This document shows positions 1-27,037 of a stretch of DNA of 38,960 nucleotides, piece after piece. The stretch is from an uncultured Oscillospiraceae bacterium (GTDB lineage: Bacteria; Bacillota; Clostridia; Oscillospirales; Oscillospiraceae): NCBI GenBank assembly GCA_947628315.1, contig CANQZJ010000014.1:1-38960 (forward strand), written 5' to 3'. A program made the position numbers and the translations under genes. Under the pieces are notes generated by a model. That model had not been told where the DNA came from. It worked only from the letters and a program-made list of their open reading frames with translations, and ran no database searches. Within the stretch, counting starts at the first letter, position 1. Every line of letters starts with the position of its first letter.

Positions 1-5
1 TTACT

Positions 6-5216: not shown

Positions 5217-5294
5217 ATCAACGCCGCCTCCATTTTTCAGAATTGCCGGATATAATCGAAAATAGTATATCACGTATTTTCGCTATTGTATATA

Positions 5295-5417: not shown

Positions 5418-7373
5418 GTGAGCCATTGGTGGGAAAATTATCCCTGGCGTATGATCCAGACCAATCTGCGGGAAGAGGACATGGAAGATCTGGATGCCCG
5501 CCGCTTCGTAGAAAAGTTGAAGGCATTTGACGCCACGGTAGTCATGGTGAACGCGGCCGGCATTGTGGCCAGCTACGAAACGGCGGTGTCCGATCACACT
5601 CAAAGCACACATCTGCACGGGGACAGCCTAAAAACCGTTATTGAAGAGTGCCACAAAGCCGGGATCCGGGTCATTGCCCGGACGGATTTCTCTAAGGTGC
5701 GCCGCCCGGTGCTGGACCGCCACCCGGACTGGGCCTATCGGGACGCAAAAGGGGAACTGTTCGACTGCAACGGCGACATCCAGGTCTGCCCCAACAGCAC
5801 CTATCACAACGAGGTGGTCTACGATATCCTCAGAGAAGTATTGACTGAACTGCCTTTTGACGGTATCTTCTTCAATATGAGCGGCGCTTTCGTCACCGGC
5901 TATGACGGGACACTGTACGGACCTTGTATGTGCGAGCGGTGCAAATCGCTTTACAAAGAGCAGACCGGACAGGACGCTCCCACCGGCGGACTGCGGGATC
6001 CGGGCTTCATGCGTTATATGGGCTTCCAGTCCAAACGGATCGCGGCCAACAAGATGAAGCAGTACCGCTTCATCAAGGCCATCAGCCCAGAGATCGCGGT
6101 GAACGGCTATGATTATATCCGGACCGAGTGCAATACCGACATGGACCGGCCAGCCTGGGTATACGGCTCCTCGATGAACGCCCGCACCGGCGGGCGGGGT
6201 AGGCTGGTGGACAACGCATGCGTGGATTTCATCGCCTCCCGCTACCGGGATACCTCCGTCTCTCCGGCCCTGGTGGAGCTGCGGCTGTGGCAGAGCCTGG
6301 CCAACGGCGGCGGGCTGAGCCACTACATCATGGGATGCCTGGACAACCACCGGGACATCTCCTGCTTCGACGCGGTGAAGAAGGTGTTCGCTTTCCACCG
6401 GGAGCATGAGGATATGTATGCTGGCCTCGCCTCCGCCGCGGAGACGCTGGTGGTGCAGAAGGACGGCATGGGTCGGGATGATCCGGAGGTATACGGCTGG
6501 ATCCACGCACTGACTCAGAGCCATATCCCCTTTGATGAATGTAAGCTCCGGGAACTGAATGAGGGAACGCTCGAGGGCAAAAAAATCGTCATCCTGGGGG
6601 ATGTCCCCAATATGAACGCCGAACAGGCGGCGCTGCTGGATGCCTTCGCGGAGAAGAGCGGCACGGTGCTGGCCACCGGCGGGGCCGGTATCGACCCCAG
6701 GACCCGGACGGTACTGCTGAAATGCCTGGGCATCACGGCGCTGGGGGAACACAAAAAGGGTCTCATGTCCTCCGTGCTGGAGGTGACAGAAGAGGATGGG
6801 GCGGTCTTCACCCGAAGCGCGGCTTCTCCCATGATCGCCATGGGAGGAGAGTTCCGCGTGGCCTCCTTCGCGGAGGGGACCCGGACATATCTGCGCCTGG
6901 TCCCCGAACACCCCTACGGTCCGCCGGAGCGGTGTTATCCCGTGCCCGCCAGCGAGCAACCCGGCGTCACTGTTCACTCCTATGGCGCGGGGCAGGGCAT
7001 CTATGTCCCGGCGCTGCTGGGCGGCTTCTACTACCGGCAGGGGTGGCAGAACACGCTGAACGTCATGCAGGACATCTTGTTCGGGCTGTGCGGGCTGCCG
7101 GAGCTGGCCCCCGGCCTGTCCCCCATGGTGGAACTGACCGTAGCACAGAAAGACGGCCTCACCCTGGTCCAGTTGGTCAATGAGAGCGGATGCTTCGCGG
7201 GACACTATTTCCCACCGGTGACCATGGGGGACATTCGTCTGCGTCTGCCGGGGCTGGCCGGAAAGACCGCCCGAACGCTCAACGGCGGCCATGTGGAGTG
7301 CCGTGAGGAAGACGGTTGCCTCGCCGTAGAGCTGGACGTTCTGAAGGACTATGAGGCGGTGTTGATCGGATGA
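5418..7373 (+). CDS. Hypothetical glycoside hydrolase (GHL6 type) with amidotransferase-like domain
   Basis: A 651-residue protein with a TIM-barrel-like N-terminal half resembling the 'hypothetical glycosyl hydrolase 6' family (features such as FDGIFFNMSGAF and the cysteine pair in GPCMCERCK). A second half near residues 370-450 resembles the trimerisation/amidotransferase-like domain of GH42 beta-galactosidases (KKIVILGDVPNMNAEQ). It has no signal peptide, so action on imported oligosaccharides is likely. The start is GTG, fixed by AAAGGAGG at 5403-5410 seven bases upstream. It is the first gene of an operon and its stop overlaps the MATE start by four bases. The substrate is unknown; activity is predicted only from fold. 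Confidence 0.75.
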   Translation: MSHWWENYPWRMIQTNLREEDMEDLDARRFVEKLKAFDATVVMVNAAGIVASYETAVSDHTQSTHLHGDSLKTVIEECHKAGIRVIARTDFSKVRRPVLDRHPDWAYRDAKGELFDCNGDIQVCPNSTYHNEVVYDILREVLTELPFDGIFFNMSGAFVTGYDGTLYGPCMCERCKSLYKEQTGQDAPTGGLRDPGFMRYMGFQSKRIAANKMKQYRFIKAISPEIAVNGYDYIRTECNTDMDRPAWVYGSSMNARTGGRGRLVDNACVDFIASRYRDTSVSPALVELRLWQSLANGGGLSHYIMGCLDNHRDISCFDAVKKVFAFHREHEDMYAGLASAAETLVVQKDGMGRDDPEVYGWIHALTQSHIPFDECKLRELNEGTLEGKKIVILGDVPNMNAEQAALLDAFAEKSGTVLATGGAGIDPRTRTVLLKCLGITALGEHKKGLMSSVLEVTEEDGAVFTRSAASPMIAMGGEFRVASFAEGTRTYLRLVPEHPYGPPERCYPVPASEQPGVTVHSYGAGQGIYVPALLGGFYYRQGWQNTLNVMQDILFGLCGLPELAPGLSPMVELTVAQKDGLTLVQLVNESGCFAGHYFPPVTMGDIRLRLPGLAGKTARTLNGGHVECREEDGCLAVELDVLKDYEAVLIG

Positions 7374-8758
7374 ACGGTGGGGATAACCGGCTGGAGCGGC
7401 TGTTTGAGCACTCCAGCGTCTGGCGGGCGATCTTTGTCATGGCGCTGCCGGCGGTGGTCAACATCCTGGTCATGGTAATGTATAACATGGCGGACATGTT
7501 CTTTGTGGCCCGCCTGCACGACGACGCACAGGTGGGGGCGGTGTCCATCGTCATGCCTGTGTTCACCATGATGATGGCCGTCGGCTCACTGGTGGGCGGG
7601 GGCGGCTGCGCGCTGATCGCCAAAACTCTGGGCGAGAAGAATGACGCCCGTGTGCGGCTCTATTCCAGCCTGTGCTGCTGGGGCAGCCTGTTTTCCGGAA
7701 TCCTGTTCGCTGGGGCGCTCCTTGTTTTCCGGGAGCTTGTTCTGAGCTTTCTGGGCGCCAACGAGGAGATGCGGGGGTATGCCGGCGCCTATCTGTCCGT
7801 GCTGGCGCTGGGGGCCCCTGTCATGATCTTCACCACGGCCTTCGGCAATATCGTGCGGGCGGAGGGCGCCATCAAGGAGGGCATGATCGGCAATCTGATC
7901 TCCACCCTTGCCAATGTGGCGCTGGATCCCCTGTTCATCCTAGCGTTCCGGCTGGGAGTGGCCGGAGCCGCTGCGGCCACCGTGCTGGGGAACATCGCCG
8001 GAGCGGTGTATCTGATCTGGTATGTCCGCAAAAAGAGCGCTTCGCTCAGCCTCTCCTGGCGGGATGCCTGCGCCGACTTGAAGGCGTTTGGCAAGGTAGT
8101 GGCCATCGGCCTGCCCAACGGCGTCAACAGTATGCTGACCAGCGTCGCCGGGGCTCTGGCCAACAATCTGATGGTGCAGTACGGCACGCTTGCGGTGGCA
8201 GCGATGGGTGCGGCCGGCAAGTCCACCACCATCATCACGATGGTGCAGATGGGGATCTGCATGGGGGTCCAGCCGCTGCTGGCCTATAACTATGGAGCCA
8301 GGAATATGCCCCGTATTCGGGAGACGATGACAAAGCTGGCGGTCCTGACCGTGTCAGTGGGGCTGGCGCTGACGCTGCTGTGCCTTTTCAACAGCGCCTG
8401 GATCGTGGACCTGTTCTTGGAGGACGACGCAGCGCTGAGCCTGGGGCAGCAGATCGTCCGTCTGCGGATTTTGACCGGGCCGTTCATGGGACTGTACTAT
8501 CTGGGTTCCAGCTTTTTGCAGGCCGCCGGCAACGCTCCGCTGGCCACCCTGGTATCGCTGCTGCGGCAGGGCATCTTCCTGATCCCCCTGCTGTATGTGA
8601 TGGATCATTATTTCCATGTGCTGGGCAATGTGAGTGCCCATATGACAGCGGATATGCTGGCCATGGTCGTGGCCGTGATACTGGCGCTCAGACAGTACGC
8701 GGTCCTGCGGGCCCTGCCGCCGGGGGCAGCCACAGCTCCGCAGGCCGAATCAAACTGA
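7370..8758 (+). CDS. MATE-family efflux transporter
   Basis: A 462-residue integral membrane protein with about twelve hydrophobic segments and the two-fold repeated MatE layout, as in Na+- or H+-driven multidrug/toxin exporters. Its ATG overlaps the previous stop (ATGA), there is no good ribosome site of its own, and translation is probably coupled. It lies between a glycosidase and a GH2 enzyme. It could expel a toxic aglycone set free when plant glycosides are cut, which is inference from context only. Confidence 0.9.
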   Translation: MNGGDNRLERLFEHSSVWRAIFVMALPAVVNILVMVMYNMADMFFVARLHDDAQVGAVSIVMPVFTMMMAVGSLVGGGGCALIAKTLGEKNDARVRLYSSLCCWGSLFSGILFAGALLVFRELVLSFLGANEEMRGYAGAYLSVLALGAPVMIFTTAFGNIVRAEGAIKEGMIGNLISTLANVALDPLFILAFRLGVAGAAAATVLGNIAGAVYLIWYVRKKSASLSLSWRDACADLKAFGKVVAIGLPNGVNSMLTSVAGALANNLMVQYGTLAVAAMGAAGKSTTIITMVQMGICMGVQPLLAYNYGARNMPRIRETMTKLAVLTVSVGLALTLLCLFNSAWIVDLFLEDDAALSLGQQIVRLRILTGPFMGLYYLGSSFLQAAGNAPLATLVSLLRQGIFLIPLLYVMDHYFHVLGNVSAHMTADMLAMVVAVILALRQYAVLRALPPGAATAPQAESN

Positions 8759-8774: not shown

Positions 8775-10973
8775 ATGCGGAACATCATTGAGTTTAATGA
8801 GGGCTGGCGGTTTTTTAAGACCGACGAAGTTCCCTCCGCTCTGCCCGCCGGCTGGGCAACTGTCACTCTACCCCACACCTGGAACGCGGTGGACGGCCAG
8901 GACGGGGGCAATGACTACTGGCGGGGCACGGCCATGTACTGCAGGGCGTTTGACCGCCCCGACCTGGAGCCGAACGGCAGAGCCGTACTGGAATTCCTTG
9001 GCGCGGCCATGACTGCCGATGTCTATGTGAACGGCCGGCATTTGGCCCATCATGAGGGCGGATATTCCACATTCCGGGTGGATGTGACGGATGCGCTGGG
9101 AGATGAAAACCTGCTGTGCGTGGCGGTGGACAACGGCGCGAATGACCGGGTCTACCCCCAGAAAGCGGACTTCACCTTTTACGGCGGACTGTACCGTGGG
9201 GTAAATCTCATCACCGTTCCCGCTGAGCATTTTGAGCTTGTAAAGGATGGAACGCCCGGTATCAAGGTCACGCCCAGCGTGAACCTGAAGAATCAGGCCG
9301 CCATCGTCTCTGTGGAGACCTGGCAAAACGGCAGCGGCCCTGTGACCGTCACTGTCGCCGGAGAGGAAAAGACAGTCATGCCGAAAGCCGGCCGGGCCTG
9401 TGCGGAATTTTTGATCGCCCCCGTCCACCTCTGGAATGGGCCGGATGATCCTTATCTCTATACCGCCAGCGCAAAACTGGCAAGCGGAGACGAGATCAGC
9501 ACCCGCTTTGGCTGCCGTGAGACATGGTTCAAGCCGGAAAGCGGCTTTTTCCTCAATGGGCGACCCTATCCCCTCCGGGGCGTCAGCCGCCACCAGGACC
9601 GGCAGGGGATGGGAAACGCCCTGACCATCAGGGAGCATCAGGAGGACATGGCGATCCTCCGGGAGATCGGCGCCAATACCGTGCGGCTGGCCCACTACCA
9701 GCACGCCCAGGAATTTTACGATCTCTGTGACGAGAACGGCATCATCGTCTGGGCGGAGATCCCCTACATCACGGAGCATATGCCGAACGGGCGGCAGAAC
9801 ACGCTGGACCAGATGCGGGAGCTGGTGGTGCAGAACTATAATCACCCCTCCATCGTCTGCTGGGGCCTCTCCAATGAGATCACAGCCTCCGGCACGGCCA
9901 CGGAGGACCTGATGGAGAACCACCGGGCGCTGAACGATCTCTGCCACCGGCTGGACTCCACCCGGCCCACCACCATGGCCCATGTGTTCATGCTGGAGAC
10001 CGACAGCCCGCTCATCGACATCCCCGACATCGGCAGCTACAACCTGTACTTCGGCTGGTATCTGGGAGAACTTGCCCAGAACGACCGCTTTTTCGACGAG
10101 TTCCACACCAAATTTCCCGGCCGGGTCATCGGCTTTTCCGAGTACGGCGCCGACGCCAATCCCCGGTTCCACTCCTCCGCACCGGAGCGGGGGGACTATA
10201 CCGAGGAATATCAATGCGTCTATCATGAGCATCTTTTGAAGGTCATCCGGGAGCGGCCCTATTTATGGGCCACCCATGTCTGGAATCTGTTCGACTTCGC
10301 TGCCGACGGCCGGGACGAGGGCGGAAAGAAGGGCGTCAATCAGAAGGGGCTGGTCACCTTTGACCGAAAGCTGAAAAAGGACGCCTTCTACCTCTACAAG
10401 GCAACCTGGAGCGGGGAACCTTTCGTACATATCTGCGGGCGGCGGTATGCGGATCGGACGGAAAATACCACCCAGGTCAAGGTCTACTCCAACCAGCCCT
10501 CTGTGACGCTCCGCGTAGACGGAAGAGAGATCGGGACAAAGGCGGGAACGGCCGTTTTCACTTTCGATGTACCTCTCACCGGGGAGCACGAGATCGAGGC
10601 GGTCTCCGGCGGCTGCCGGGACAAGATCACCCTCCGCCGCGTGGCGGAGCCCAACCGGGAGTATCTTTTCAGAAAAGCGGAAGTAGTCAACTGGTTTGAC
10701 AAAGAGGACTATAAGCCGGATTGTTACTCCGTCAAGGACACGATGGGCGCGCTGATGCGCAATCCCCGGTCCGCTGCCATCCTGGGGAAGATGATGGAGC
10801 GGATGTTCGCCAGCCGGGGCGATGTGGCCAAGAGCGCCAACGGCAACGCCAACCTCCAGCGCATGATGGCGGGGATGTCCCTGGAGAGCCTGATCAAGCA
10901 GGCGGGGGACGCGGTGCCGGCGGAGATGGTGAAGTCCCTCAACGTTGCCCTGCAGCAGATCAGAAAGGACTGA
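8775..10973 (+). CDS. GH2 beta-galactosidase/beta-glucuronidase-family enzyme with C-terminal helical module
   Basis: A 732-residue GH2 enzyme: jelly-roll sugar-binding domain (1-170), immunoglobulin-like domain (170-255), TIM barrel (255-550), a further Ig-like domain (about 555-635), and a helical tail (about 653-732). The acid/base glutamate is E368 in GLSNEI and the nucleophile is E456 in GFSEYG; both are intact. There is no signal peptide, so it is probably cytosolic. Specificity (galactoside, glucuronide or other) is open. The tail resembles the N-terminus of the GH43 protein at 2508. TAGGAGA precedes the ATG by seven bases. The gene is in the same operon as GHL6 and MATE. Confidence 0.9.
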
Positions 10974-10990: not shown

Positions 10991-12220
10991 ATGAACAGAG
11001 AACTTCGCGGGGATGCGGATCGGATCGTGAAGGCCAGCATCCGGGCGGTGCTGCCGGACGAGGCGGTCCGCCGCGCCCTGAAGGAATTTTCCCCAGGCAG
11101 CGGGAGGGTCCTGCTGATCGCCGCGGGCAAAGCGGGCTGGCAGATGGCGAAGGCCGCCGTGGACACCCTTGGAAATGTGGACGGCGGCGTGGTGGCGACC
11201 AAGTACGGCCATGTGATGGGCGATATTCCCGGCGTGATTTGCTGCGAGGCGGGGCACCCGGTCCCGGATGGGAACAGCTTTGCCGCCACGAAGAGGGCTT
11301 TGGATCTGGTGAGCGGCCTTTCGGCAGAGGACTCGGTGCTGTTCCTTCTGTCCGGAGGCGGCAGCGCCCTTTTTGAGAATCCGCTGATCCCTGGCGGAGA
11401 GCTTCAGGATATCACCCGGCAGCTGCTCTCCTGCGGGGCGGACATCGTAGAGATGAACACCGTCCGCAAGCGGCTGTCCGCCGTCAAAGGCGGCCGGTTC
11501 GCCCAGGCCTGCGCCCCGGCCAGGGTGTTCAGCGTCGTCCTCAGCGATATCCTGGGCGATTCTCTTGACATGATTGCCAGCGGCCCCGCCTATCCTGACA
11601 GCTCCACCTGCGAACAGGCCCTGGCCATTGCGAAAAAGTACCGGCTGCGGCTCAGTGACAGGGCCAGAGAACTGCTGCGAAGCGAAATGCCAAAGGCGCT
11701 GGATAACGTAACTACCCGGATCACTGGCAGCGTTCGGGAGCTGTGTGCGGCGGCGGCAAGGGAGTGCGCCGCCCTGGGCTACGAGCCGCTGCTGCTCACC
11801 GATCATCTGGACTGTGAGGCGCGGGAGGCCGGACGCTTCCTGGCAAGCGTCCTCCGCACCCATGCGGGCTGCGGCAAAAAGCTGGCCTTCATCGCCGGAG
11901 GCGAAACGGTGGTCCATGTGACCGGCGGCGGGCTGGGGGGCCGGAACCAGGAGCTGGCGCTGGCTGCCGCGCCGGGGATCGCGGGACTGAACGCCGCGGT
12001 GTTCAGTGTGGGCAGCGACGGAACGGAGGGCCCCACCGATGCCGCAGGCGGCATGGTGGACGGTGATACTCTTTCGGAACTGCGGGCAAAAGGCCTGGAT
12101 CCCTTTTCCGTCCTGCGGGAAAACGACGCCTACCGCGCCCTTGGAGCAGTGGACAGCCTGATCCTCACCGGCCCTACGGGGACCAACGTCAACGACGTGG
12201 CTGTGGGACTTCTTGGATAA
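10991..12220 (+). CDS. Glycerate 2-kinase (MOFRL/DUF4147 family)
   Basis: A 409-residue kinase of the class II type, which phosphorylates D-glycerate to 2-phosphoglycerate with ATP. The N-terminal domain carries [12 protein letters not shown] and the glycine-rich SGGGSAL near residue 121. The C-terminal MOFRL domain carries [20 protein letters not shown] and [16 protein letters not shown]. The start is ATG at 10991, with GAGGAAGG just upstream. The same frame extends further upstream inside the GH2 gene, but that part is not a plausible start. As last gene of the 5418 operon it feeds glycerate into lower glycolysis, and it matches the reductases encoded convergently at 12286-14291. Confidence 0.9.
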
Positions 12221-12285: not shown

Positions 12286-13392
12286 TCACATCCACTCGGA
12301 GGGGTCTTTCCAGCCCCGTTTTCCCAGGTATTTCTCCAGATCCATTTTCTCGATCTGTTCTTTGGTGAGTTTTGTGTTCATCATTCGCGCCCAGCCACCT
12401 TCGGCCTTGCCGTCGGAAACGGCGTCCAAAGGTTTCATCTGATTCAGGAGGGGTTCTCCGGCCTCAAAACGGCGGGCATTCTCCCGGATGATCTCAATGC
12501 TCCTGCCGGCGCGGTCAGGCACCTGCGGGGTGCAGTGAGGGGTGATGTACACGCTGGGCATGGTCCACAGCGGGCTGTCCGGCTCCAACGGCTGGGTCTC
12601 AAACACATCCAGCCCCGCGCCGCTGAGTTGGCCGGAGCGGAGCGCTTCGATGAGATCCTCTGTGCAGACCACGCCTCCTCTGGCCATGTTGACCAGAAAA
12701 GCTCCCCGCTTCATTTTGGCGAACGTATCGGCGTTCATCAGGTGGAAGGTGTCGTCGGTAAGCGCCACGCAGAGGATAACGAAATCCGACTCTGCCAGAA
12801 GGGGCTCCAGGGTGTCGCCCTCAGAGGCGGTCAGCTTTCGGGATACGTAGGCGTAACCTTTCAGCGGGAATTTGTCATAGGTGATGAGTCTCATGCCCAG
12901 AGCGTGGAGACGCTCGGCCAGCATGCGGCCATTGTTGCCCATGCCGATGATGCCGGCGGTGCGGCCGTACAGTCCCCGCCACTGCTGAGAGCCGTCCACC
13001 CCCCAGCGGCAGGCCGCCTGGGCCTCCAGCAGCTCTTTGGTATGGTAGCAGCTCTGAAGCATGAAATAGATACAGTGTTCCGCCAGCACTGGGGCGCTAC
13101 GGCCCGCCGCGCCGGTGACCGGGATCCCTCTGGCAAAGACCTCCGGCCGGGCGGAGCCGTTGAGACCGGAGTGATCACAGTGGATCCATTTCAGGGTGTT
13201 CTCCCCCAGCAGGCAGGGATCCACATCCCCCATGAGGATGGCCGCGTCTGCGTCCCGGACCTCACGCTCCAGCTTCTCTCTGTCATAGAAATCCACATAA
13301 CAGAATTCCGCATCAGGGAACACCCGCCGCAGGTCATACATATGCGCCTTGTCATACCAGACCGTGGTGACGACCTTTTTGAGTTTCGGCAC
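12286..13392 (-). CDS. D-2-hydroxyacid dehydrogenase (NAD-dependent)
   Basis: A 368-residue member of the D-isomer 2-hydroxyacid dehydrogenase family. The Rossmann motif GMGNNG lies at 150-155. The catalytic set appears as R238 in ARGG, E265 in DVFE and H286 in TPHC. Likely substrates are small 2-keto/2-hydroxy acids, for example hydroxypyruvate/glycerate, given the neighbouring glycerate kinase and GarR-like reductase. The start is GTG with AGGGGG upstream. About 45 C-terminal residues beyond the family core (ending DPSEWM) are unusual and unassigned. It follows the garR-like gene by 20 bases in one operon. Confidence 0.85.
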   Translation of the reverse strand: MPKLKKVVTTVWYDKAHMYDLRRVFPDAEFCYVDFYDREKLEREVRDADAAILMGDVDPCLLGENTLKWIHCDHSGLNGSARPEVFARGIPVTGAAGRSAPVLAEHCIYFMLQSCYHTKELLEAQAACRWGVDGSQQWRGLYGRTAGIIGMGNNGRMLAERLHALGMRLITYDKFPLKGYAYVSRKLTASEGDTLEPLLAESDFVILCVALTDDTFHLMNADTFAKMKRGAFLVNMARGGVVCTEDLIEALRSGQLSGAGLDVFETQPLEPDSPLWTMPSVYITPHCTPQVPDRAGRSIEIIRENARRFEAGEPLLNQMKPLDAVSDGKAEGGWARMMNTKLTKEQIEKMDLEKYLGKRGWKDPSEWM

Positions 13393-13412: not shown

Positions 13413-14291
13413 TTACCGGCCGATTTGAATGCCGGTGAGATACTCGTAATACTGGGCGATGGCGCTGTGATCCTTCTGCCCGCCCTCATGATTGTGCATC
13501 CACTGAAGGATCTCCTGGACCTGGGCGGTCATAGGTACGGGGGCGCCTACGGTGTGGGCGCAGTCCAGGGCATTGTTCAGGTCTTTGATGTGCAGGTCGA
13601 TCTTGAAGCCGGGTTTATCGTTCCCCTCGATCATCATTGGGGCTTTGGCGTTCATGACGGTAGAACCCGCCAGACCGCCCCTGATGGCCTGGAACACCAG
13701 CTCCGGGTCCACTCCAGCCTTCTGGGCCAGCGTCAGCGCCTCGGCCAGGGCCTGGATGTTGCAGGCAACGATGATCTGGTTGGCAAGCTTGGTGGTATTG
13801 CCGGCGCCCACGTCCCCGCAGCGCACCACGGAGGAACCCATGGCCTCCAGCACCGGCTTGTACTGGTCAAAGACCTCCTGCTTGCCGCCCACCATGAAGG
13901 ACAGGGTGCCGTCAATGGCCTTTGGTTCACCGCCGGACACGGGGGCGTCCAGCATTTTAATGCCCCGTTTGGACAGCTCCGCGGCGATCTCCTTAGAGGC
14001 CACGGGATTGATGGAACTCATGTCGATGAATACGGAGCCGGGCTTCATGTGGGCGGCCACGCCGTCCTCCCCCAGCATGACCGCCTTTACCTGGGGGCTG
14101 TTGGGGAGCATGGTGAGGACCAGATCGCAGGTCTCGCCGATCTCGGCGTTGGGAGCGGCCTTGGCTCCCGCCGCTGCCAGCTCAGGCGCAGCGCGGTTGG
14201 CGCTGGAGACGGTCAGGTCATACCCTGCCTTCAAAAGATTTTTGGCCATGGGTCTGCCCATGATGCCCAGGCCGATAAGTCCGATTTTCAT
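13413..14291 (-). CDS. garR: Tartronate semialdehyde reductase-like beta-hydroxyacid dehydrogenase
   Basis: A 292-residue protein with the hallmarks of the 3-hydroxyisobutyrate/GarR family: N-terminal NAD(P) motif GLIGLGIMGRPMAKNL, substrate-binding DAPVSGG at about 115-121, and catalytic K168 in GNTTKLANQ. GarR reduces tartronate semialdehyde to D-glycerate, which the glycerate 2-kinase at 10991 could then phosphorylate. Related enzymes act on other beta-hydroxyacids, so the precise substrate is inferred from context. The ATG is preceded by AGGAGG. It is the first gene of a minus-strand pair and divergent from the esterase/FdrA operon. Confidence 0.85.
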   Translation of the reverse strand: MKIGLIGLGIMGRPMAKNLLKAGYDLTVSSANRAAPELAAAGAKAAPNAEIGETCDLVLTMLPNSPQVKAVMLGEDGVAAHMKPGSVFIDMSSINPVASKEIAAELSKRGIKMLDAPVSGGEPKAIDGTLSFMVGGKQEVFDQYKPVLEAMGSSVVRCGDVGAGNTTKLANQIIVACNIQALAEALTLAQKAGVDPELVFQAIRGGLAGSTVMNAKAPMMIEGNDKPGFKIDLHIKDLNNALDCAHTVGAPVPMTAQVQEILQWMHNHEGGQKDHSAIAQYYEYLTGIQIGR

Positions 14292-14531: not shown

Positions 14532-15488
14532 ATGGCGTTTGCGTACCGCAGGGAACTGAAGCAGCCCGGTGCCCTTCAGAGGATCGATTTTGGCAATCCC
14601 AAGCTCGCCCCCATGATCCGCATGGTGGTCCAGAGCCAGCGCGCCGCGGCTCGGGCATGGATGCCGCCGGACGGTCTGACCGCCCGCGTGTTTTCACTCC
14701 CCTCCTGGGACGGAGAGCCCATCGGGTGCTTTGTGGTAGAGCCGGAGGCGGCGGAGCCTTTGCCGGGGATACTGTACTGCCACGGAGGCGGATTTTTCCT
14801 TCCCGTGCAGACCTCTGCTTTTGAGCTGGCGGCGTTTTATGCGGAGCGTTTGCGGGTACGGGTATTCATGCCGGACTACCGCATCCTGCCGGAGCATCCG
14901 GATCCCTATCCGTTCCGGGACTGTCTGGCGGTATGGGAGGGGATGAGCGGGCGGGCGGAGATTCACCGGCTGGACGGCCGGCTGCTTCTGTACGGAGAAA
15001 GCGCAGGAGGGGCGTTGGCGGCGGGACTGGCCCTGTGGCTGCGGGATCACGGCGGACAGCAGCCCGCCGGACAGCTTCTGATCTACCCCGCGCTGGACGA
15101 CAGTCCTAAGGACTATCCCTCTATGGAGCGGTGCGACGGGGCTGTGTGGACCAGGCGTTCCAACGACTATATGTGGAGCGCGTACCTGAAAAACAGCGAT
15201 CAGGAATCGGAGCGGTATACCGTTCCCATGAAGAATGGACGGTTTGACGATCTGCCGCCCGCCTATATCGAACCGCAGGAGTTCGACATTCTGCGGGACG
15301 AGGCAACGGCCTACGCCGGGAAACTGCGGCGGGCCGGGGTGTGGGTGGAGCTGGTGCAGATCGCTGGCTCCTACCACGGCTTTGACACCGATGTGCGGAA
15401 TCCCTTTGTCCGATCAGTTCTGGAGCAGCGCGTCCGCGCCATGGCGGGGATGCTGGCACACTATGAAAACGAGGAGAGAGAGCCATGA
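14532..15488 (+). CDS. Alpha/beta hydrolase, hormone-sensitive-lipase-like esterase
   Basis: A 318-residue carboxylesterase-type hydrolase. Oxyanion motif HGGGF, nucleophile S157 in GESAGG, acid D252 in EFDILRDEA and H282 in YHGFD form a complete triad. No signal peptide is seen with the chosen start, so it is probably cytosolic. The start at 14532 is supported by AAGGAGGTG six bases upstream; an in-frame ATG at 14466 has none. Its stop overlaps the start of the DUF1116 gene (ATGA), so it is translationally coupled to the FdrA-type system and likely acts on the same substrate, for example by removing an ester or lactone. The actual ester is unknown. Confidence 0.85.
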   Translation: MAFAYRRELKQPGALQRIDFGNPKLAPMIRMVVQSQRAAARAWMPPDGLTARVFSLPSWDGEPIGCFVVEPEAAEPLPGILYCHGGGFFLPVQTSAFELAAFYAERLRVRVFMPDYRILPEHPDPYPFRDCLAVWEGMSGRAEIHRLDGRLLLYGESAGGALAAGLALWLRDHGGQQPAGQLLIYPALDDSPKDYPSMERCDGAVWTRRSNDYMWSAYLKNSDQESERYTVPMKNGRFDDLPPAYIEPQEFDILRDEATAYAGKLRRAGVWVELVQIAGSYHGFDTDVRNPFVRSVLEQRVRAMAGMLAHYENEEREP

Positions 15489-16750
15489 CCATTGAACAGC
15501 AAGTCAACGCCGCCAACGACCGGGTGATGGAGATCCTCACCAAGGGCCGCCCTGTCTGGAAAGACGTGCGGCCCGCCTTGGATGTGATCCCCGGCATGAC
15601 CGAGACCACTGTGCTGGTACCCGGCCCTCCTCTGCCGGTGGAGCGGCTCACTACGCCTATCCGGACCGCCGTCTGCGGCGCGGCGGTCCATGAGAAGCTG
15701 GCGAAGACAAAAGAGGAGGCCTGGGAGATGGTGCTGCGGGGTGAGATCACCGTAGCCCAGGCTCAGGACCACCAGTGCGGCTGCGCCGCCTGCATGGTGG
15801 TCTCCGCCAGTATGCCGGTCATCGTGGCGGAGGACAGTGTCTACGGGGGGAAGGGCTACGCACCCATTCATCCCGGTCCCAACCCCAAGTGCCTCCGCTG
15901 GGGCTTTTATGATGAGGACGTGGAGCGCGACCTGAGCTGGTTCAGAGATCACTACGGTCCCGCTCTGGGCCATGCGGTCCGCGCCGCCGGGGGGATCGAC
16001 CTTGTGACTGTCCTGGCCAAGACGGCGGGCATGGGAGATGAGAACCACAACCGTCAGCCCGCCGCGTCTATGTACCTGGCGTTGCAGGTCATCCCTTGGA
16101 TGCTGGATCTGGAGGACCCGGACCGGGATGAGATGATCCGGCATCTGGCCGCCAACGACCGGTTCTTCCTCCATCCCATGATGGCCGGAGTGGAGAGCAT
16201 CACCGCCACGATGAAGCAGGTCCCCCTGTCCACCGTGGTGGCGGGGATGGCTGGCAACGGAGTGGAATTCGGCATCCAGCTGGCGGGTACCGGCAACCGA
16301 TGGTATACCACTAAGGCCCCAGTCATCAAAGGCACCTTTCTGAATCCCTCTTATACCGAGGCGGATCTGCTGGGTTATCTGGGGGACAGCTGCGTCACCG
16401 AGGTCTACGGCCTGGGCGGGATGTCTGCCATCGCCGGCCCCGCCTATCTGCGTATGACCGGCTCCAACATCGCCGAGGCCCGCAGCCGCACCGAGAAGGC
16501 CAGAGCGGTGTCCCTGGGAGAGCATACCTTTGCCCCTGTTCCTTGGGACGACTTCAAGGGGTTTCCCGTGGGACTCGATGCCAGGAAGATCATAGGCTAC
16601 AACATCCTGCCCATCAGCCACGGAGGTTCGGCGCTGAAAAAGGGCGGCCAGGGCGGGGCCGGCGCGGCGGAACTGCCGCTGGAGTGCTTCAAGGAGGCGC
16701 TGCGGGGCATCTATCAAGAGGCGCTGGTTCGGACGGAACAGGAGGGTTAA
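15485..16750 (+). CDS. DUF1116 protein, AllG/YlbE-like subunit, variant
   Basis: A 421-residue homologue of the DUF1116 family, whose E. coli member YlbE/AllG is a subunit of oxamate carbamoyltransferase. Family features include GMGDENHNRQPA, GMAGNGVEFGIQLAG, NRWYT and GGMSAIAGPA. One segment is clearly different: where the family as I recall it has a histidine- and glycine-rich stretch of the form HHxxAVGPMxG, this protein has DHQCGCAACMVV, giving cysteines at 98, 100 and 103. That predicts a different ligand, or a metal site. No signal peptide is seen. The gene overlaps its upstream neighbour and lies three bases before the FdrA-like gene, with which it presumably forms a complex. Oxamate carbamoyltransferase activity should not be assumed. 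Confidence 0.8.
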   Translation: MTIEQQVNAANDRVMEILTKGRPVWKDVRPALDVIPGMTETTVLVPGPPLPVERLTTPIRTAVCGAAVHEKLAKTKEEAWEMVLRGEITVAQAQDHQCGCAACMVVSASMPVIVAEDSVYGGKGYAPIHPGPNPKCLRWGFYDEDVERDLSWFRDHYGPALGHAVRAAGGIDLVTVLAKTAGMGDENHNRQPAASMYLALQVIPWMLDLEDPDRDEMIRHLAANDRFFLHPMMAGVESITATMKQVPLSTVVAGMAGNGVEFGIQLAGTGNRWYTTKAPVIKGTFLNPSYTEADLLGYLGDSCVTEVYGLGGMSAIAGPAYLRMTGSNIAEARSRTEKARAVSLGEHTFAPVPWDDFKGFPVGLDARKIIGYNILPISHGGSALKKGGQGGAGAAELPLECFKEALRGIYQEALVRTEQEG

Positions 16751-16753
16751 GGT

Positions 16754-18325
16754 ATGGAAGTGTTCGTGAAGATCGAGCGGGGCCGGTATGTGGACTCTCT
16801 GGAAACCCTCCTGGCCTCCAGTGTGCTCAACGATCAGCCCGGCATCGAGATCGGCTGCGCCGGGATGGCCACTGACCCCGGAAAAGACGTGTTGGAGAGC
16901 GTGGGCCTGCTGACGGAGGAGTTGAAAACCTGCGACGGGAGCTGTTACATCATCGCGGCCAGGGCGGAATCCCAGGCGGCCTTCGATGCGGCGGTTGACG
17001 AAGTGGAGGCGAATCTGGCCCCGGAGGACTCCGGGGACGAAAACGAAACCGGGGAGCGGAGCTGCCCCACCATCAGGGCGGCGGTGGCGGCCTGCCCCAA
17101 AGCCAACCTGTGCTCCGTGGCTGTCCCCGGCGAGTACGCTCTGGGAGAGGTCAAAAAGGCACTGAACGCAGGTCTCCACTGTGTGGTGTTCAGCAACAAC
17201 GTGCCCCTCTCCGACGAGCGGGAAATGAAGGAGCTGGCCTGGGAAAAGGGCCTGCTCTGCATGGGCCCGGACTGCGGTGTGGCCAACATCAACGGCGCAG
17301 CTCTGGTGTTGGCCAGCATCAATAACCGCGGCCCCTTCGGCATCTGCGGAGCCTCCGGCGTGGGGATCCAGCATGTGGCGGCAATCCTTCATGAGGCGGG
17401 CACCGGCATCAGCCAGACCATCGGCACCGGGGGCAATGACCTGAAAAACGAGGTTGGCGGCATCATGATGCTCATGGGCATTGACGCCCTGGAGGCCGAC
17501 CCGGAGACAAAATACATCGCCCTCATCGCCCGGCGCATCGGGGACCTGGTGGAGCCCGCCATCCTGGAACGCATTTCACGCTGCAAAAAGCCGGTAGTAG
17601 CTATGTTCATGAGCTGTGACCGGGCGGCTGTAGAGAAGACCGGCGCTGTCTGGGCCAGAGATCTGGACGACTGCGCCCAAAAATGCCTGGCCATGGTCGG
17701 AAAGACCTATGAGCTTGAGACAGACGAGGAACTGGCGGCCAAAGCCGCAGAGGCGGTCAGTCTGCTGGCACCGGAGCAGAAGTATGTGCGGGGCGCATTC
17801 AGCGGCGGCACTTTCATGGACGAGGCCATGCGGGCCCTGATCCCCAAGGTGGGCGATGTGCTCTCCAACTGCCCGCTCAAGGAGGAGTGGCGGTTGGCTG
17901 ACTCCCATAAGAGCGTTGGCAACGCCTGCATCGATTACGGGGAGGAGGAATTTACTCTGGGCCGGCCGCACCCGGCCATCGACCCCGGCGTGCGGAAGCC
18001 CGCCATCCTTTGGGAGGCCGGGGATCCGGAGACCGCCGTGATCCTGCTGGACTTCATCCTGACCCCGCCGGGGCACATGGATCCGGTGGGCTATGTGCTG
18101 GATGACATCCGGAGGGCACAGGAGTTGGCCAGAGACGCGGGCCGGCACATCGTCTTCGTGGCATCGGTGCTGGGCACCGATGCGGATTTTCAGAATGTAA
18201 GTGCCCAGCGGAAGAAACTGGCCGACGCCGGAGTGCTGGTGTGCAGGACCAACCATCAGGCGGCGCTGCTGTCCGGCGAGATCGTCCGGCAGAAGAAAGA
18301 GAGGGATATGCATGGACTGCGATAA
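16754..18325 (+). CDS. FdrA/AllF-like acyl-CoA-synthetase-fold protein
   Basis: A 523-residue member of the FdrA family, related to the alpha subunit of succinyl-CoA synthetase. It shows MGPDCGVANING near residues 172-183, a glycine-rich loop CGASGVGIQHVAA near 197-209 and SQTIGTGGNDL near 219-229. A second ligase-like half follows, with FSGGTFMDEA and GRPHPAID. In E. coli FdrA/AllF works with AllG and AllH to transfer a carbamoyl group to phosphate. Here the AllG-like gene is directly upstream, no AllH homologue is present, and the downstream kinase is of the acetate kinase fold. The product is therefore more likely an acyl phosphate other than carbamoyl phosphate; this is inference. The 3' end overlaps the next small gene by 14 bases. 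Confidence 0.8.
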   Translation: MEVFVKIERGRYVDSLETLLASSVLNDQPGIEIGCAGMATDPGKDVLESVGLLTEELKTCDGSCYIIAARAESQAAFDAAVDEVEANLAPEDSGDENETGERSCPTIRAAVAACPKANLCSVAVPGEYALGEVKKALNAGLHCVVFSNNVPLSDEREMKELAWEKGLLCMGPDCGVANINGAALVLASINNRGPFGICGASGVGIQHVAAILHEAGTGISQTIGTGGNDLKNEVGGIMMLMGIDALEADPETKYIALIARRIGDLVEPAILERISRCKKPVVAMFMSCDRAAVEKTGAVWARDLDDCAQKCLAMVGKTYELETDEELAAKAAEAVSLLAPEQKYVRGAFSGGTFMDEAMRALIPKVGDVLSNCPLKEEWRLADSHKSVGNACIDYGEEEFTLGRPHPAIDPGVRKPAILWEAGDPETAVILLDFILTPPGHMDPVGYVLDDIRRAQELARDAGRHIVFVASVLGTDADFQNVSAQRKKLADAGVLVCRTNHQAALLSGEIVRQKKERDMHGLR

Positions 18326-18497
18326 GATCCTGGATTTGTTTCAGTCGGAGCTGGTGGTGGTGAACGTGGGTCCTAAACTGTTTGCCACCGCACTGGAAAA
18401 GCAGGGCTACCGGACCGTTCAGGTGGACTGGAAGCCCGTGGCTGGCGGGGACCGGGAGATGCAGAAAATCCTGGAAGTGCTGGGAGGTCTGGAGTGA
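18312..18497 (+). CDS. Small 61-residue protein, possible split-off subunit domain of the FdrA/DUF1116 system
   Basis: A short protein starting MDCDKILDLF and containing VVVNVGPKLF, QGYRTVQVDWKP and AGGDREM. From memory, a segment of this type (NVG..F...L..QG..V..VDW.P.AGGD) occurs fused to larger subunits of this family in other bacteria, which would make this a free-standing version; I could not check it. AGAGAGGGA precedes the ATG. It overlaps the FdrA-like gene and ends one base before the kinase start, so it is locked inside the operon and is very likely real. Function unknown. Confidence 0.7.
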   Translation: MDCDKILDLFQSELVVVNVGPKLFATALEKQGYRTVQVDWKPVAGGDREMQKILEVLGGLE

Positions 18498-18498
18498 G

Positions 18499-19680
18499 AT
18501 GAAGGTACTGGTCTGCAATGCCGGGAGCACATCATTGAAATTCAAGCTCTACGATATGCCGGAGTCCGAACTTCTGGCCACTGGCAAGGTGGAGCGGGTG
18601 GGCAGCCCGGACGACGCCATTTTCGGTTATGAGAACTGCCTCATTGGGTACAGAGTCGAGGAGGGAGGGCAGAACATTCCGGATTACCGGACCGGGATCC
18701 AGCGGTTCCTCCTCTGCCTCACCTCAGGTGAGGGCCGCGTGTTGGATGAGATCGGAGAGATAGAGCGAGTGGGATACAAGTCCGTCCTCTCCAAAGATCA
18801 CTACGGCATCCATGAAATCGACGAGGGGGTCCTGCAGGGGATGCGGGATTTCCTGCCCCTGGCCCCCGTCCACAACAGCGCCTATCTGGGGGCCATCGAG
18901 ACCATGCGCCAGGCCCTGCCGGACGCGCGGCACGTGGGCGTCTTTGAGACCGCTTTTCACAAGGACATCCCGCTGGAGCGGCGGATCTACGGCGTGCCCT
19001 GGGAATGGCACGAGATGTACGGCGTTCAGCGCATGGGCTACCACGGCGCCTCCCACGGGTATATCGCCGACGTTTTGAACGGGGAGAAACGCGAGTACGC
19101 CGCCATCTCCTGCCATCTGGGGGGCAGCGCCTCCGTCTGCGCCATCCTGAACGGCAAAAGTGTGGACACCAGCTTCGGTATGTCCTTGGAGACGGGTCTC
19201 ATCCACGCCAACCGTGTGGGCGATATGGACCCCACCATGATCCATTTTCTGAAAGAAGTCGGGCTCTCCGAGCAGGCGATCCTGGATGGCTGCCAAAAGA
19301 AGGGCGGGCTGTTGGGCATCTCAGGGGTCAGCAACGATCTGCGCTATGTCCAGGAGGCAGCGGAGGCCGGAAACGAGCGGGCGAAGCTCGCCATCGACGT
19401 GTTCGTCAGCGGCATCGTCCACTACATCGGGGCGTTCTACCTGGATCTGGGCCGGCTGGACGATCTGATCTTCACCGCCGGCATCGGGGAACATTCTGCT
19501 CTGATCCGACGTTTGGTCTGCGACCGGCTGGGACCCATCGGCGTGAAGCTGGACGCGAAAAAAAACGAAACCTGCCACGGGGCGGGGGTCATCTCCGCAG
19601 TAGACTCTGCCGTGAAGGTCCGGGTCATTCCCGCCAACGAGGAGCTGGGCATTGCCCGCCGGGCCTTTGAACTGGCGTGA
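18499..19680 (+). CDS. Acetate kinase-family protein, divergent active site
   Basis: A 393-residue member of the acetate/butyrate kinase (ASKHA) family, which makes ATP from acyl phosphate and ADP. Conserved: NAGSTSLK (N7), H182 in YHGASH, R239 in ANRVGDMDP and E381 in PANEELGIAR. Changed relative to Methanosarcina acetate kinase: the R91 position is K94 in VGYKSV, D148 is E150 in FETAFH, and N211 of HLGNG is G209 in HLGGS. The usual HRVVHGG motif is lost. The phosphate chemistry is likely kept but the acyl group is probably not acetate. It is the last gene of the operon, so it probably uses the acyl phosphate made by the FdrA/DUF1116 proteins. GGAGTGAG precedes the ATG. Confidence 0.85.
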   Translation: MKVLVCNAGSTSLKFKLYDMPESELLATGKVERVGSPDDAIFGYENCLIGYRVEEGGQNIPDYRTGIQRFLLCLTSGEGRVLDEIGEIERVGYKSVLSKDHYGIHEIDEGVLQGMRDFLPLAPVHNSAYLGAIETMRQALPDARHVGVFETAFHKDIPLERRIYGVPWEWHEMYGVQRMGYHGASHGYIADVLNGEKREYAAISCHLGGSASVCAILNGKSVDTSFGMSLETGLIHANRVGDMDPTMIHFLKEVGLSEQAILDGCQKKGGLLGISGVSNDLRYVQEAAEAGNERAKLAIDVFVSGIVHYIGAFYLDLGRLDDLIFTAGIGEHSALIRRLVCDRLGPIGVKLDAKKNETCHGAGVISAVDSAVKVRVIPANEELGIARRAFELA

Positions 19681-19875: not shown

Positions 19876-21654
19876 ATGTCAGCACAGACCGAACCCAAGA
19901 CCGGGTTGCTTGCCAATGCGTTCCGAGGGAAATTCTGGAACACGCGCATCACCTCCGCCAACGTTGGCAAAAAGGAGCTGTTCCTGGGCTATGTGGCAGG
20001 CCCCTTCGGCGCCATGCTCCTGCAGTCCATCGTCAACAGCTACTTCAATCAGTACCTGACCGACGTCCTCGGCTTTACCTCCAATATGGGCATGTGGATC
20101 GCCGGCTTCATGGTCATGTTCCCGCTGCTGTCCAAGATTCTGGACGCCGTCACCAACGTCCTGATGGCTAAGGTGCTGGACAACACTACCTGCCGCCAGG
20201 GCAAGCTGCGCCCCTGGCTGATCCTGAGCCTGCCCATCATGGTGGTCAGCCTGATGATGCTGTTCTGGATCCCTTTCAGCAATCCCGTGGTCATGGCTGT
20301 GTGGATCGTCATCGCTTACAACCTGTTCTACTCCGTGGGCTATACCATGTGGTATATGTCCTATGAGTTGTCCGCCGCCCTGTCCACCCGGAACTTCCAG
20401 CAGCGCAAGAACAACTCCATGGGCGGACAGATCACCAAGAACATCGGCACCGGCATCATCTCTATCCTGTTCCCCACTATCCTTACCGCCATCAGCGGCA
20501 TGGTGGGCAACACCCGGGACGGATATCTGGTGTGCATGGCCGTCATGTGCTGCATCGCCGTCCCCTTGACTTTCGTGCAGTACTTTTTCACCCGCGAGCG
20601 TATCACTGAGGAGCGGCGCAATCAGTACGGCGTGGTTGATCAGCCCCAGGGCCGCACTTTGGTGAAAGAGGCCACCTTCCTTGAGCAGTTCAAGGCCTGC
20701 ATCAAGGACAAGTATTGGATCATGCTGATCGTGATGATCCTGGTCTATCAGGTGCTTAACGCCATGCGCAGCGTGGCGCAGGTCTATTACAGCGGCTGGG
20801 TGGTGCAGGGCAACGCCTACGGCGAATACGCCGCCATCCAGGCCAAATTCACCATGATCTCCATGGCGCCCATGGGTCCCGGCCTTATTCTGCTGCTCCC
20901 CCTGTTCAAAAAGTTCGGCCGCACCAAGGTCATCATCGTGGGTTCCCTCTTTGCCGCCGTCGGCGCTTTCGCTGCGTTCATGAGTATGGGCAAAACGGGC
21001 GCCATCTACGGTGGGACTGCGTTCTATTCCATCGGCGCTATGGCTCTGATCTACTCCATGCTCACCTTTGTGGGCGATTCTATCGACCATGTGGAGTACT
21101 CCCAGGGTGTCCGGGTAGAGGGCTTGACAGCAGCTGTGGTGGGCTTTGCGGAGATGTTCTCCAAGGGCATTGGCCAGGCGCTGTTCAATCTGGGTCTCAT
21201 CGTCACCAAGTACGCGCAGCCGGAAGTGGTGGGTTCCTTTATCAACGACAAGGGAGATGAGATCCTGCGCTACGCCGACCAGACTCAGGCGGCCACCAGT
21301 TGGATCAACTTCTCCTATCAGGGCGCCAATATGCTGACCGGCGTACTGTTCTTCATCCTCTTTGCTTTCTTCTTCAAGATCGAGCGGGATATGCCCACCG
21401 TCCAGAGGACGCTGGAGGAAAAGAAGCGCAAGGAATGCGAAGCCCAGGGCATCGAGTACATTCCCCAATCCGAGATGGAGAAGCGGGAACGGGCAAAGCA
21501 GGCCCAGGAGGCGGAGGAGAATCGCATTAAGGAACTCCGCGAGAGATGCGCCAGGCGGGGTCTGGACTTCGACACTGAGAACCAAAAGGTGCTGGACAAG
21601 CGGGCTGCGAAAGCGGCGAAAAAGGCCGCCAAAAAAGCCAGGAAAAGCAAATAA
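19876..21654 (+). CDS. GPH-family sugar:cation symporter with long charged C-terminal tail
   Basis: A 592-residue transporter of the glycoside-pentoside-hexuronide family (MelB type) with about twelve membrane segments. Family-typical stretches include YVAGPFGAMLLQSI, SKILDAVTNVLMAKVLDNT, TRNFQQRKNN and FVGDSIDHVEYSQGVR. It is roughly 100 residues longer than a plain family member: from about residue 500 on it is a charged, probably coiled and cytosolic tail ending in repeated KAAKKA units. GGGAGGAGA precedes the ATG. It has its own promoter region, which shares boxes with the FdrA operon, so it may import that pathway's substrate. Substrate not assignable. Confidence 0.9.
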   Translation: MSAQTEPKTGLLANAFRGKFWNTRITSANVGKKELFLGYVAGPFGAMLLQSIVNSYFNQYLTDVLGFTSNMGMWIAGFMVMFPLLSKILDAVTNVLMAKVLDNTTCRQGKLRPWLILSLPIMVVSLMMLFWIPFSNPVVMAVWIVIAYNLFYSVGYTMWYMSYELSAALSTRNFQQRKNNSMGGQITKNIGTGIISILFPTILTAISGMVGNTRDGYLVCMAVMCCIAVPLTFVQYFFTRERITEERRNQYGVVDQPQGRTLVKEATFLEQFKACIKDKYWIMLIVMILVYQVLNAMRSVAQVYYSGWVVQGNAYGEYAAIQAKFTMISMAPMGPGLILLLPLFKKFGRTKVIIVGSLFAAVGAFAAFMSMGKTGAIYGGTAFYSIGAMALIYSMLTFVGDSIDHVEYSQGVRVEGLTAAVVGFAEMFSKGIGQALFNLGLIVTKYAQPEVVGSFINDKGDEILRYADQTQAATSWINFSYQGANMLTGVLFFILFAFFFKIERDMPTVQRTLEEKKRKECEAQGIEYIPQSEMEKRERAKQAQEAEENRIKELRERCARRGLDFDTENQKVLDKRAAKAAKKAAKKARKSK

Positions 21655-21698: not shown

Positions 21699-21753
21699 GA
21701 AGGGAATGGTGTTCTATACGGCGTATAATCGGTTAAAAAGGGTGGTGGTATCA

Positions 21754-22467
21754 ATGCGCATTGCTATTGTTGACGATGAACAGGAGATGCGGGACACTCT
21801 CGCGGAATATATCGCCCGTTATGCATCGGAGAACGGCGCGGAGATAGAAACGATCCCCTTCCCCTCTGGAGACACACTTCTGGAAAACTACAGGCTGATC
21901 TACGACATCATCATCTTCGATGTGGATATGCCGGGAACCAGCGGCATTGATGCCGCCCGACTGGTGCGGGAGCGGGATCGGTCGGTTGTGATCCTGTTCG
22001 TGACCAACATCGCCCAGTACGCTATCAATGGATACGAGGTAGCCGCAGTAGACTACATTATCAAGCCCATCGGCTATTACGACTTTGCCATGAAGTTCCG
22101 CCGGGCGGTGGCTATGGCCTCCAGAGGCCAGCGGCGGGAACTGTTTTTGGAGACAGCGGAGGGCGGTCGCCGTCTGCCAGTGTCCTCCATCCTGTATGTG
22201 GAAACGCTGGGACACTACCTCATCTATCACCTGGACGGAGAGGACGGCCGCCCCAGGGAGCTTCGGGTGAGGGGCAACATGAAAGAGCAGGAGGCTGCCC
22301 TGCGGCCCTATGAGTTCTGCCAAATCCACAAATCCTATCTTGTGAATTTGGCCCATATGGAGGAGTTGCGGACTGGCCACGTGTTGGTGGGCGGCCAGGA
22401 GCTGCCGGTGGGCCGGACCTATAAGGACGAGCTGGTGACCCGGTTTTTCCGATTTGCACGGGGGTGA
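21754..22467 (+). CDS. LytTR-family response regulator
   Basis: A 237-residue regulator with an N-terminal receiver domain (phospho-acceptor D56 in IIFDVDMPG, acidic pair in IVDDE) and a C-terminal LytTR DNA-binding domain (about 130-237, with SILYVETLGHYLIYH and FCQIHKSYLVNL). Start chosen at 21754, where MRIAIVDDE opens the receiver domain; GGTGGTGG is a modest ribosome site. An upstream in-frame ATG at 21706 would add a non-conserved 16 residues. Its stop lies next to the sensor kinase start. AgrA/VirR-type proteins bind repeats upstream of target genes; the targets here may be the surface genes at 24006-30013. Confidence 0.9.
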   Translation: MRIAIVDDEQEMRDTLAEYIARYASENGAEIETIPFPSGDTLLENYRLIYDIIIFDVDMPGTSGIDAARLVRERDRSVVILFVTNIAQYAINGYEVAAVDYIIKPIGYYDFAMKFRRAVAMASRGQRRELFLETAEGGRRLPVSSILYVETLGHYLIYHLDGEDGRPRELRVRGNMKEQEAALRPYEFCQIHKSYLVNLAHMEELRTGHVLVGGQELPVGRTYKDELVTRFFRFARG

Positions 22468-22472
22468 ACGGC

Positions 22473-27035: not shown

Positions 27036-27037
27036 CC

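Follow-up and report, generated by a model that had tools for sequence, protein, structure and literature searches.

Which reaction does an AllF-AllG pair serve when the kinase encoded beside it has the fold of acetate kinase? The question is raised by positions 14532-19680 of contig CANQZJ010000014.1 (assembly GCA_947628315.1, an uncultured Oscillospiraceae bacterium), where five genes, all on the + strand, code in this order for an esterase, AllG, AllF/FdrA, a protein of 61 amino acids and an acetate-kinase homologue. The whole stretch of DNA analysed, 38,960 nucleotides long, is called here the window. AllF and AllG are relatives of oxamic transcarbamylase, an enzyme of purine breakdown. 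According to PMC11326118, oxamic transcarbamylase was first assigned to genes in 2024, and the E. coli proteins AllFGH convert oxalurate and inorganic phosphate to oxamate and carbamoyl phosphate. On balance, and with some reserve, we read the region as the likely energy-conserving core of a conserved glycoside or sugar-acid pathway, in which AllFG would phosphorolyse a donor other than a carbamoyl compound, the kinase would make ATP and the carbon would leave as glycerate. The set should be classified neither as oxamic transcarbamylase nor as acetate kinase proper, because defining features of both that were tested are lacking; it probably works like an oxamic transcarbamylase coupled to an acetate kinase.

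Gene content of the locus

The intergenic gaps, from the esterase through AllG, AllF and the small protein to the kinase, are -4, +3, -14 and +1 bases, in agreement with the original prediction that the five genes overlap or nearly touch. The first gene (14532..15488, +) codes for an alpha/beta-hydrolase esterase of the HSL type (Abhydrolase_3, 1.5e-48) with HGGG and GESAG motifs; its open reading frame (ORF) is open from 14466, and the start at 14532 has the better ribosome-binding site, GGAAGGAGG. AllG (15485..16750, +) is a DUF1116 protein of the kinase-linked clade described below, matching PF06545 with 212.7 bits (6e-63, cut-off 27) and the structure 3CLQ with 213 bits. The AllF/FdrA homologue (16754..18325, +; Ligase_CoA) has the motifs GPDCG at 171 and GRPHP at 403 and is homologous to the FdrA structure 3DMY (193 bits), though it scores under the NCBIfam FdrA cut-off (PRK06091, 357 of 433 bits). 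Its alignment to PRK06091 ends at position 499 of the 555 positions of the model. The 61-residue protein (18312..18497, +) matches positions 506-554 (2.5e-10), i.e., it starts where the AllF match stops, and is therefore the C-terminal tail of AllF carried as an ORF of its own. It had been proposed as a new component in its own right, an idea that we have rejected on this match; in outline the rest of the original description stands.

The last gene (18499..19680, +) codes for a kinase with a Lys91/Glu148 signature that matches PF00871 (329.9 bits, 2.2e-98) and TIGR00016 (328 bits, cut-off 293). PF00871 is its sole Pfam match, and the amino-acid-kinase fold of carbamate kinase (PF00696) is not matched. 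Neither carbamate kinase nor AllH was found among the 25 window genes, by a Pfam scan or by profiles for the two proteins, as had been claimed from the sequence; the rest of the genome was searched for AllH only, which was not found there either (the genome is 77% complete).

Conservation of the gene set

An alignment of three AllG orthologues was scanned against the contigs of one genome per species (84,980 species) and gave 52 loci, which by NCBI lineage belong to Bacillota (46), Spirochaetota (4), Chloroflexota (1) and Pseudomonadota (1). Because the scan depends on two conserved peptide patterns, it misses members in which both have been lost. We mapped 53 regions: the window, L011, L012 and 50 of these loci. 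The other two loci, L020 and L021, duplicate L011 and L012 and were not included. Where at least 4.5 kb follow AllG (37 regions), AllF, its tail and the acetate-kinase-like (Ack-like) kinase were present in 36, carbamate kinase in none and AllH in one (L054). The conserved co-occurrence without carbamate kinase, on which the original prediction had staked its case, thus extends over several phyla, and the recurrence is far beyond chance, though many of the carriers are related metagenome-assembled genomes (MAGs). By their record titles the carriers are gut, rumen and other anaerobes.

The setting among glycosidases and enzymes of C3 acids, noted before for the window, recurs as well. In the 27 loci flanked by at least 7 kb on each side (wide loci) we found the glycosidase-like protein GHL6 in 22, the esterase in 21, the tartronate semialdehyde reductase GarR in 21, a D-2-hydroxyacid dehydrogenase (HADH) in 19, a glycerate kinase of either type in 14 and a glycoside hydrolase of family 2 (GH2) in 8; within 6 kb of AllG the numbers were 20 for GHL6, 21 for the esterase, 13 for GarR and 14 for HADH. 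Order and strand of the genes vary while membership largely stays (L012, L026, L028, L054, L060). For example, HADH through glycerate kinase all run in one direction in L012, whereas in the window HADH and GarR are divergent. In L054 and L060 the glycerate kinase belongs to another family (GlxK, PF02595), which points to selection for the glycerate kinase function. The esterase, counted originally as part of the set, accompanies it in the window and in most wide loci, but its place in the core is doubtful and it is not universal, being absent from the AllH-bearing L054 and L067, and as a necessary core part it was rejected, since 6 of the 27 wide loci lack it.

As a control we used 80 AllG regions, 60 from the same phylum and 20 from Pseudomonadota and Spirochaetota together. 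They were taken, although not every match was, from PF06545 searches with matches in 60 of 398 genomes of the same phylum (source genome included) and over the cut-off in 15 of 398 Pseudomonadota (the genome of L067 included) and 15 of 247 Spirochaetota (that of L049 included). AllF was present in 73 control regions, AllH in 58, carbamate kinase in 39 and AllH and/or carbamate kinase in 64; GHL6, GarR, glycerate kinase and the Lys91/Glu148 kinase subfamily were each found in 0/80. The single acetate kinase (L175) has ordinary residues and adjoins a carbamate kinase. No carbamate kinase was nearby in 41 of the 80 either; these absences are only local, as the regions are 4-16 kb long. In L013 (8640-12593) AllF and AllG are fused into one protein of 999 amino acids that adjoins an amino-acid-kinase-family protein. 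The low-scoring AllG homologues of L161-L164, from Pseudomonadota, had no AllF, AllH or kinase match within their 16-kb regions.

Among 60 relatives, the source genome (G000) included, a close AllG orthologue (86-100%) and a strong Ack-like match (E up to 1e-130) occurred together only in G000, G013 and G036. G001, G020 and G048 had AllG at 32-36% only, at loci L013-L015, which carry carbamate kinase and AllH. Another contig of G036 (L229, 3-9478) has AllF, tail and Ack followed by a glycerate kinase, a D-2-hydroxyacid dehydrogenase, a MATE transporter, a flavin adenine dinucleotide (FAD) oxidoreductase and a second D-2-hydroxyacid dehydrogenase. This may be a second copy of the set, because its AllF differs from that of L011 (316 of 1473 31-mers shared). 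The FAD enzyme is also found beside AllG in L049, L055 and L057.

A genome-wide search for AllH was negative in 17 of 18 genomes with the present gene set, the single match (genome of L039) lying outside the L039 locus, and also in the genomes of L049 and L060. The genome of L044 has AllH in another region, together with an AllF-AllG pair of the carbamoyl type. In L054 and L067, AllH directly follows the kinase. The claim that AllH is missing is thus right for the window and nearly all of its relatives and fails for these two members, which branch early. In a simple history, an ancestor would have had AllFGH plus Ack; AllH would later have been lost and the esterase often acquired.

Divergence of AllG, AllF and the kinase

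Trees of AllG and of the kinase, a check suggested with the original prediction, were built. That of AllG (87 of 130 rows, leaving out 13 near-copies and 30 of the 80 control rows; quick method, no bootstrap, midpoint root) places the 37 rows of the present type together, separated from the rest by a branch with an SH-aLRT (Shimodaira-Hasegawa-like approximate likelihood ratio test) support of 100, i.e., the kinase-linked AllG form one clade. L067, a long row, and then L054 branch first. For seven of these rows the retrieved DNA contains no kinase; a contig end truncates six of them, and the seventh is L044. Comparing the 80 control with the 37 kinase-linked rows, nearly invariant AllG positions that differ are H94Q, M102A, N129H, E130P, R257G, N379H, T380G and H384L, while G184, D185, E186, H188 and many others are kept in both clades. 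AllF changes towards the kinase-linked type include T176V, F186L, N188S, R228N, K260R and G437T, among others (46 vs. 76 rows, near-copies included), with GPDCG and GRPHP unchanged between the types.

The kinase was described at the outset as a divergent relative of acetate kinase, and both its residues and its position in the tree bear this out. Using M. thermophila numbering, Arg91 is replaced by Lys, Asp148 by Glu, Asn211 by Gly and Gly212 by Ser in all 42 sequences compared (two fragments dropped, near-copies included); Arg241, His123, His180 and His208 are kept in all of them and Glu384 in 41. PMC6461089 states that Arg91 and Arg241 contact the carboxyl group of acetate and that R91A keeps 0.3% of kcat in the M. 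thermophila enzyme. In the Salmonella enzyme, Asp150 is one of the metal ligands, and Asn213 and Gly214 lie at the nucleotide (PMC3475010); we have taken these three as the equivalents of 148, 211 and 212. In the kinase tree (58 sequences) 27 ordinary acetate kinases form one side of a branch with support 100. The kinases of L054, a very long row, and L067 stand apart from the other AllFG-linked ones, near four kinases from loci without AllF or AllG (L182-L185), and the tree does not establish unbroken inheritance of the kinase as a single unit.

Against the acetate kinases AckA of M. thermophila and T. maritima (1TUU, 2IIR) the window kinase is homologous over the whole length with 38-39% identity and shares Arg241, Glu384, His123 and His180; it differs by the four substitutions above, by Leu/Glu in place of Pro232/Leu233 and by its separate clade. 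The source genome holds another homologue (G000:C10, 404 bits), which has the ordinary residues.

A possible pathway

We infer the phosphorolysis, the acyl group, the order of the steps and the formation of ATP as follows. GHL6 and other glycosidases, here also a beta-glucuronidase, would release a sugar or uronic acid. AllF with its tail and AllG, working without AllH, would split an activated acyl donor other than oxalurate with inorganic phosphate to give an acyl phosphate, and the acetate-kinase-fold enzyme would move the phosphate to ADP, a job that falls to carbamate kinase in the AllFGH system. The remaining carbon would be turned into glycerate by GarR (from tartronate semialdehyde) and probably by HADH (from hydroxypyruvate), and glycerate kinase would phosphorylate it. 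What points to a transfer of this kind with a different acyl donor is that AllF retains its motifs and much of AllG is conserved, that the kinase has another fold, that positions marking the other clade are lost and that the neighbors make glycerate. The donor has to be an activated one, since the product would be an acyl phosphate.

A more specific version of this chemistry is rather doubtful, but can be drawn from the structures of the compounds. A 2,4-dioxo acid (HOOC-CO-CH(OH)-CO-R) has oxalurate (HOOC-CO-NH-CO-NH2) as its nitrogen isostere, and (hydroxy)pyruvate has oxamate. With phosphate, the AllFG relatives might thus break a C-C bond in a beta-dicarbonyl sugar acid, i.e., a phosphorolytic beta-diketone cleavage in a new uronide pathway. 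A 3,5-dioxo hexuronate would give hydroxypyruvate (or its tautomer tartronate semialdehyde) and a C3 acyl phosphate, from which the kinase would make ATP and tartronate semialdehyde; HADH and GarR would reduce both C3 products to glycerate and the glycerate 2-kinase GckA would yield 2-phosphoglycerate. Such a cleavage would account for both reductases and the glycerate kinase accompanying the set. A literature search for phosphorolysis with hydroxypyruvate, tartronate semialdehyde and acyl phosphate, or of acylpyruvate, found no such chemistry in the portions of text returned; the acylpyruvate search pointed to work on FAH-family proteins. In a second search, on combinations of FdrA, DUF1116, AllFGH and acetate kinase, titles and abstract beginnings, with few subscription journals covered, held nothing on this gene set.

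The broader pathway, with the acyl group left general, can be set beside known systems. With E. coli AllFGH and its carbamate kinase AllK (PMC11326118) the set shares AllF and AllG homologues, the AllF motifs and a kinase for an acyl phosphate in the same operon. It differs in the acetate-kinase fold, the separate AllG clade with its changed positions, the setting of glycosidases and glycerate enzymes, and the absence, from the window and nearly all relatives tested, of AllH (PF11392), which is needed in E. coli. The AllF tail is also separately encoded here, although this is likewise so in some loci of the carbamate-kinase type, e.g., L014. With Pta-Ack the set would share the passage from acyl phosphate to ATP by an Ack-fold kinase; however, no phosphotransacetylase was found among the 25 window genes scanned against Pfam, and AllFG would fill that place. 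The logic of AllFG plus a kinase is known, while the acyl group, the kinase and the sugar setting appear to be new. What we describe is a separate and widespread branch of the AllF/AllG pair, linked with a different kinase and with the breakdown of glycosides. If the pathway is correct, it would be a new entry among the few known routes of ATP formation by substrate-level phosphorylation, assign a role to some of the DUF1116/FdrA proteins, place GHL6 (PF14871) in a context and indicate how some bacteria may use the sugar acid freed from glucuronides.

Several observations weigh against this pathway. L044, the sole exception among the 37 regions, is a lone AllG of this clade with no adjoining AllF or kinase. 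HADH, GarR, glycerate kinase and esterase are frequent, not universal, and since related MAGs contribute many near-copies, the locus counts do not represent independent events. Besides G000, G013 and G036, two genomes that lack AllG, G007 and G025 (the latter 74% complete), carry a full GHL6, so this protein can operate without the set; in G050 it is matched weakly and only in part. Lys91, Glu148 and Gly211 also occur in the four kinases of L182-L185, with no AllF or AllG nearby in these or in the wider regions L211-L214. These are among the 30 best-scoring loci checked from 299 genomes; the signature alone is therefore no proof of a dedicated AllFG partner, and we have rejected the idea that it is unique to the AllFG system. 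Finally, UxaC is found elsewhere in 8 of the 9 genomes tested, so that ordinary hexuronate breakdown is available; a role of the gene set as a substitute for missing UxaC was rejected for this reason.

At L211 (8335-15505) one of these four signature kinases, without AllFG, stands beside genes for a branched-chain-type ABC importer (by eye), galactarate/altronate-dehydratase-like and LarA-like proteins, a D-2-hydroxyacid dehydrogenase and an HMGL-like protein, again a hydroxy-acid setting and a possible further acyl-phosphate pathway.

Alternative explanations

One alternative, which we hold to be decidedly unlikely, is that the set is still an oxamic transcarbamylase. AllFG would make carbamoyl phosphate from oxalurate or another ureide, the Ack-fold enzyme would replace carbamate kinase, and GarR with glycerate kinase would be the glyoxylate branch of ureide breakdown, the part played in E. 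coli by GlxR and GlxK. In its favor, the early-branching L054 and L067 keep AllH, genes for an amidohydrolase and a TRAP solute-binding protein lie close to the set in L067, and AllF and AllG are homologous to proteins with that activity (PMC11326118). However, apart from the AllH match in one of the 18 genomes of this type, no AllH was found in these, nor in G000, G454 and G457, some of them incomplete; AllG has changes at positions that hardly vary in the other clade; and the neighbors are glycosidases and sugar importers, with no ureide enzyme among the commonest 25 of 154 Pfam families (89 of the 108 further neighbor proteins listed).

Just as unlikely, in our estimate, is that AllFG acts like a phosphotransacylase or acyl-CoA synthetase, converting acyl-CoA and inorganic phosphate to acyl phosphate and CoA, with the kinase making ATP as in Pta-Ack. 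The fold of AllF is related to the alpha subunit of succinyl-CoA synthetase, with matches to succinate-CoA ligase alpha models (56 bits) and structures, and the classical partnership of acetate kinases is the Pta-Ack pair (PMC6461089). Against this, CoA has no place in the AllFGH reaction as given in PMC11326118, no acyl-CoA-forming enzyme is a constant neighbor among those commonest 25 families, and the Pfam CoA_binding score of AllF, 20.4, is under the cut-off of 22.3.

Least likely of these is chance co-location or hitch-hiking in a carbohydrate island, with AllFG-Ack serving an unrelated small-molecule pathway: glycosidase content does differ between loci, L067 has no GHL6 or GH2 in 12 kb, and G007 and G025 have GHL6 but no AllG, yet GHL6 (22/27), GarR (21/27) and glycerate kinase (14/27) accompany wide AllG-Ack loci against 0/80 control regions each, and membership largely persists through the changes of order and orientation in L012, L026, L028, L054 and L060. 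Ordinary mucate/galactarate breakdown as the reason for GarR and GckA is not favored, as no dehydratase or aldolase gene was found among the 25 window genes or the commonest 25 of the 154 neighbor families.

Neighboring genes in the window

Upstream of the set lies an AraC-type regulator (3996..5273, -; HTH_18, 2.9e-19), of a family that recurs at homologous loci, followed by GHL6 (PF14871; 5418..7373, +), the most constant neighbor. A single-sequence PDB search with GHL6 had no usable match, but profile and model searches did, and by sequence and fold we compared it with 6TVK, a GH151 alpha-L-fucosidase; GHL6 may be a GH151-like glycosidase. Next come a MATE transporter (7370..8758, +; PF01554 and TIGR00797, both over cut-off) and the GH2 protein (8775..10973, +). 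An N-x-K-G motif is present in all 14 complete GH2 copies of the loci, one further copy being cut off, and N-x-K is a motif of the class of beta-glucuronidases that bind flavin mononucleotide (FMN). By similarity (1103.7 bits to 7KGZ over residues 1-731) the window GH2 belongs to this class and is a close relative of its gut members. 7KGZ is Rh3 GUS, an FMN-binding enzyme according to PMC8748916; the word operon does not appear in the accessible portions of that paper or of PMC9377255, whereas here the AllFG-Ack-GarR-GckA setting is added. In L227 (1651-10307, from G007) a GHL6-MATE-GH2-glycerate kinase block like that of the window lacks the AllFG side and adjoins a recombinase-like gene, by eye a serine recombinase.

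The glycerate 2-kinase of the GckA/MOFRL type (10991..12220, +) has DUF4147 and MOFRL domains and matches glycerate 2-kinase models under their equivalog cut-offs. HADH (12286..13392, -; 2-Hacid_dh_C, 9.4e-52) has phosphoglycerate dehydrogenase and glyoxylate/hydroxypyruvate reductases as its nearest solved relatives. GarR, a 2-hydroxy-3-oxopropionate (tartronate semialdehyde) reductase (13413..14291, -), is over the curated cut-offs of PRK11559 (455.7 bits vs. 397) and TIGR01505 (402 vs. 340.75) and scores 380 bits to the tartronate semialdehyde reductase 1VPD. Downstream of the kinase is a GPH-family sugar/glucuronide symporter (19876..21654, +; MFS_2, 5.5e-55; TIGR00792, 145 bits, under the cut-off of 231).

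Within the carbohydrate region, a LytTR response regulator and a GHKL histidine kinase are found at 21706-23858. In both GH3 proteins of the window (3-2495 and 23973-27035) the C-terminal GH3 domain precedes the N-terminal one, i.e., the order is reversed. The second is followed by a protein of 993 amino acids (27032-30013) with Pfam matches only to lipocalin-like, NlpE, DUF5640 and DUF7263, no stretch of which passes alone.

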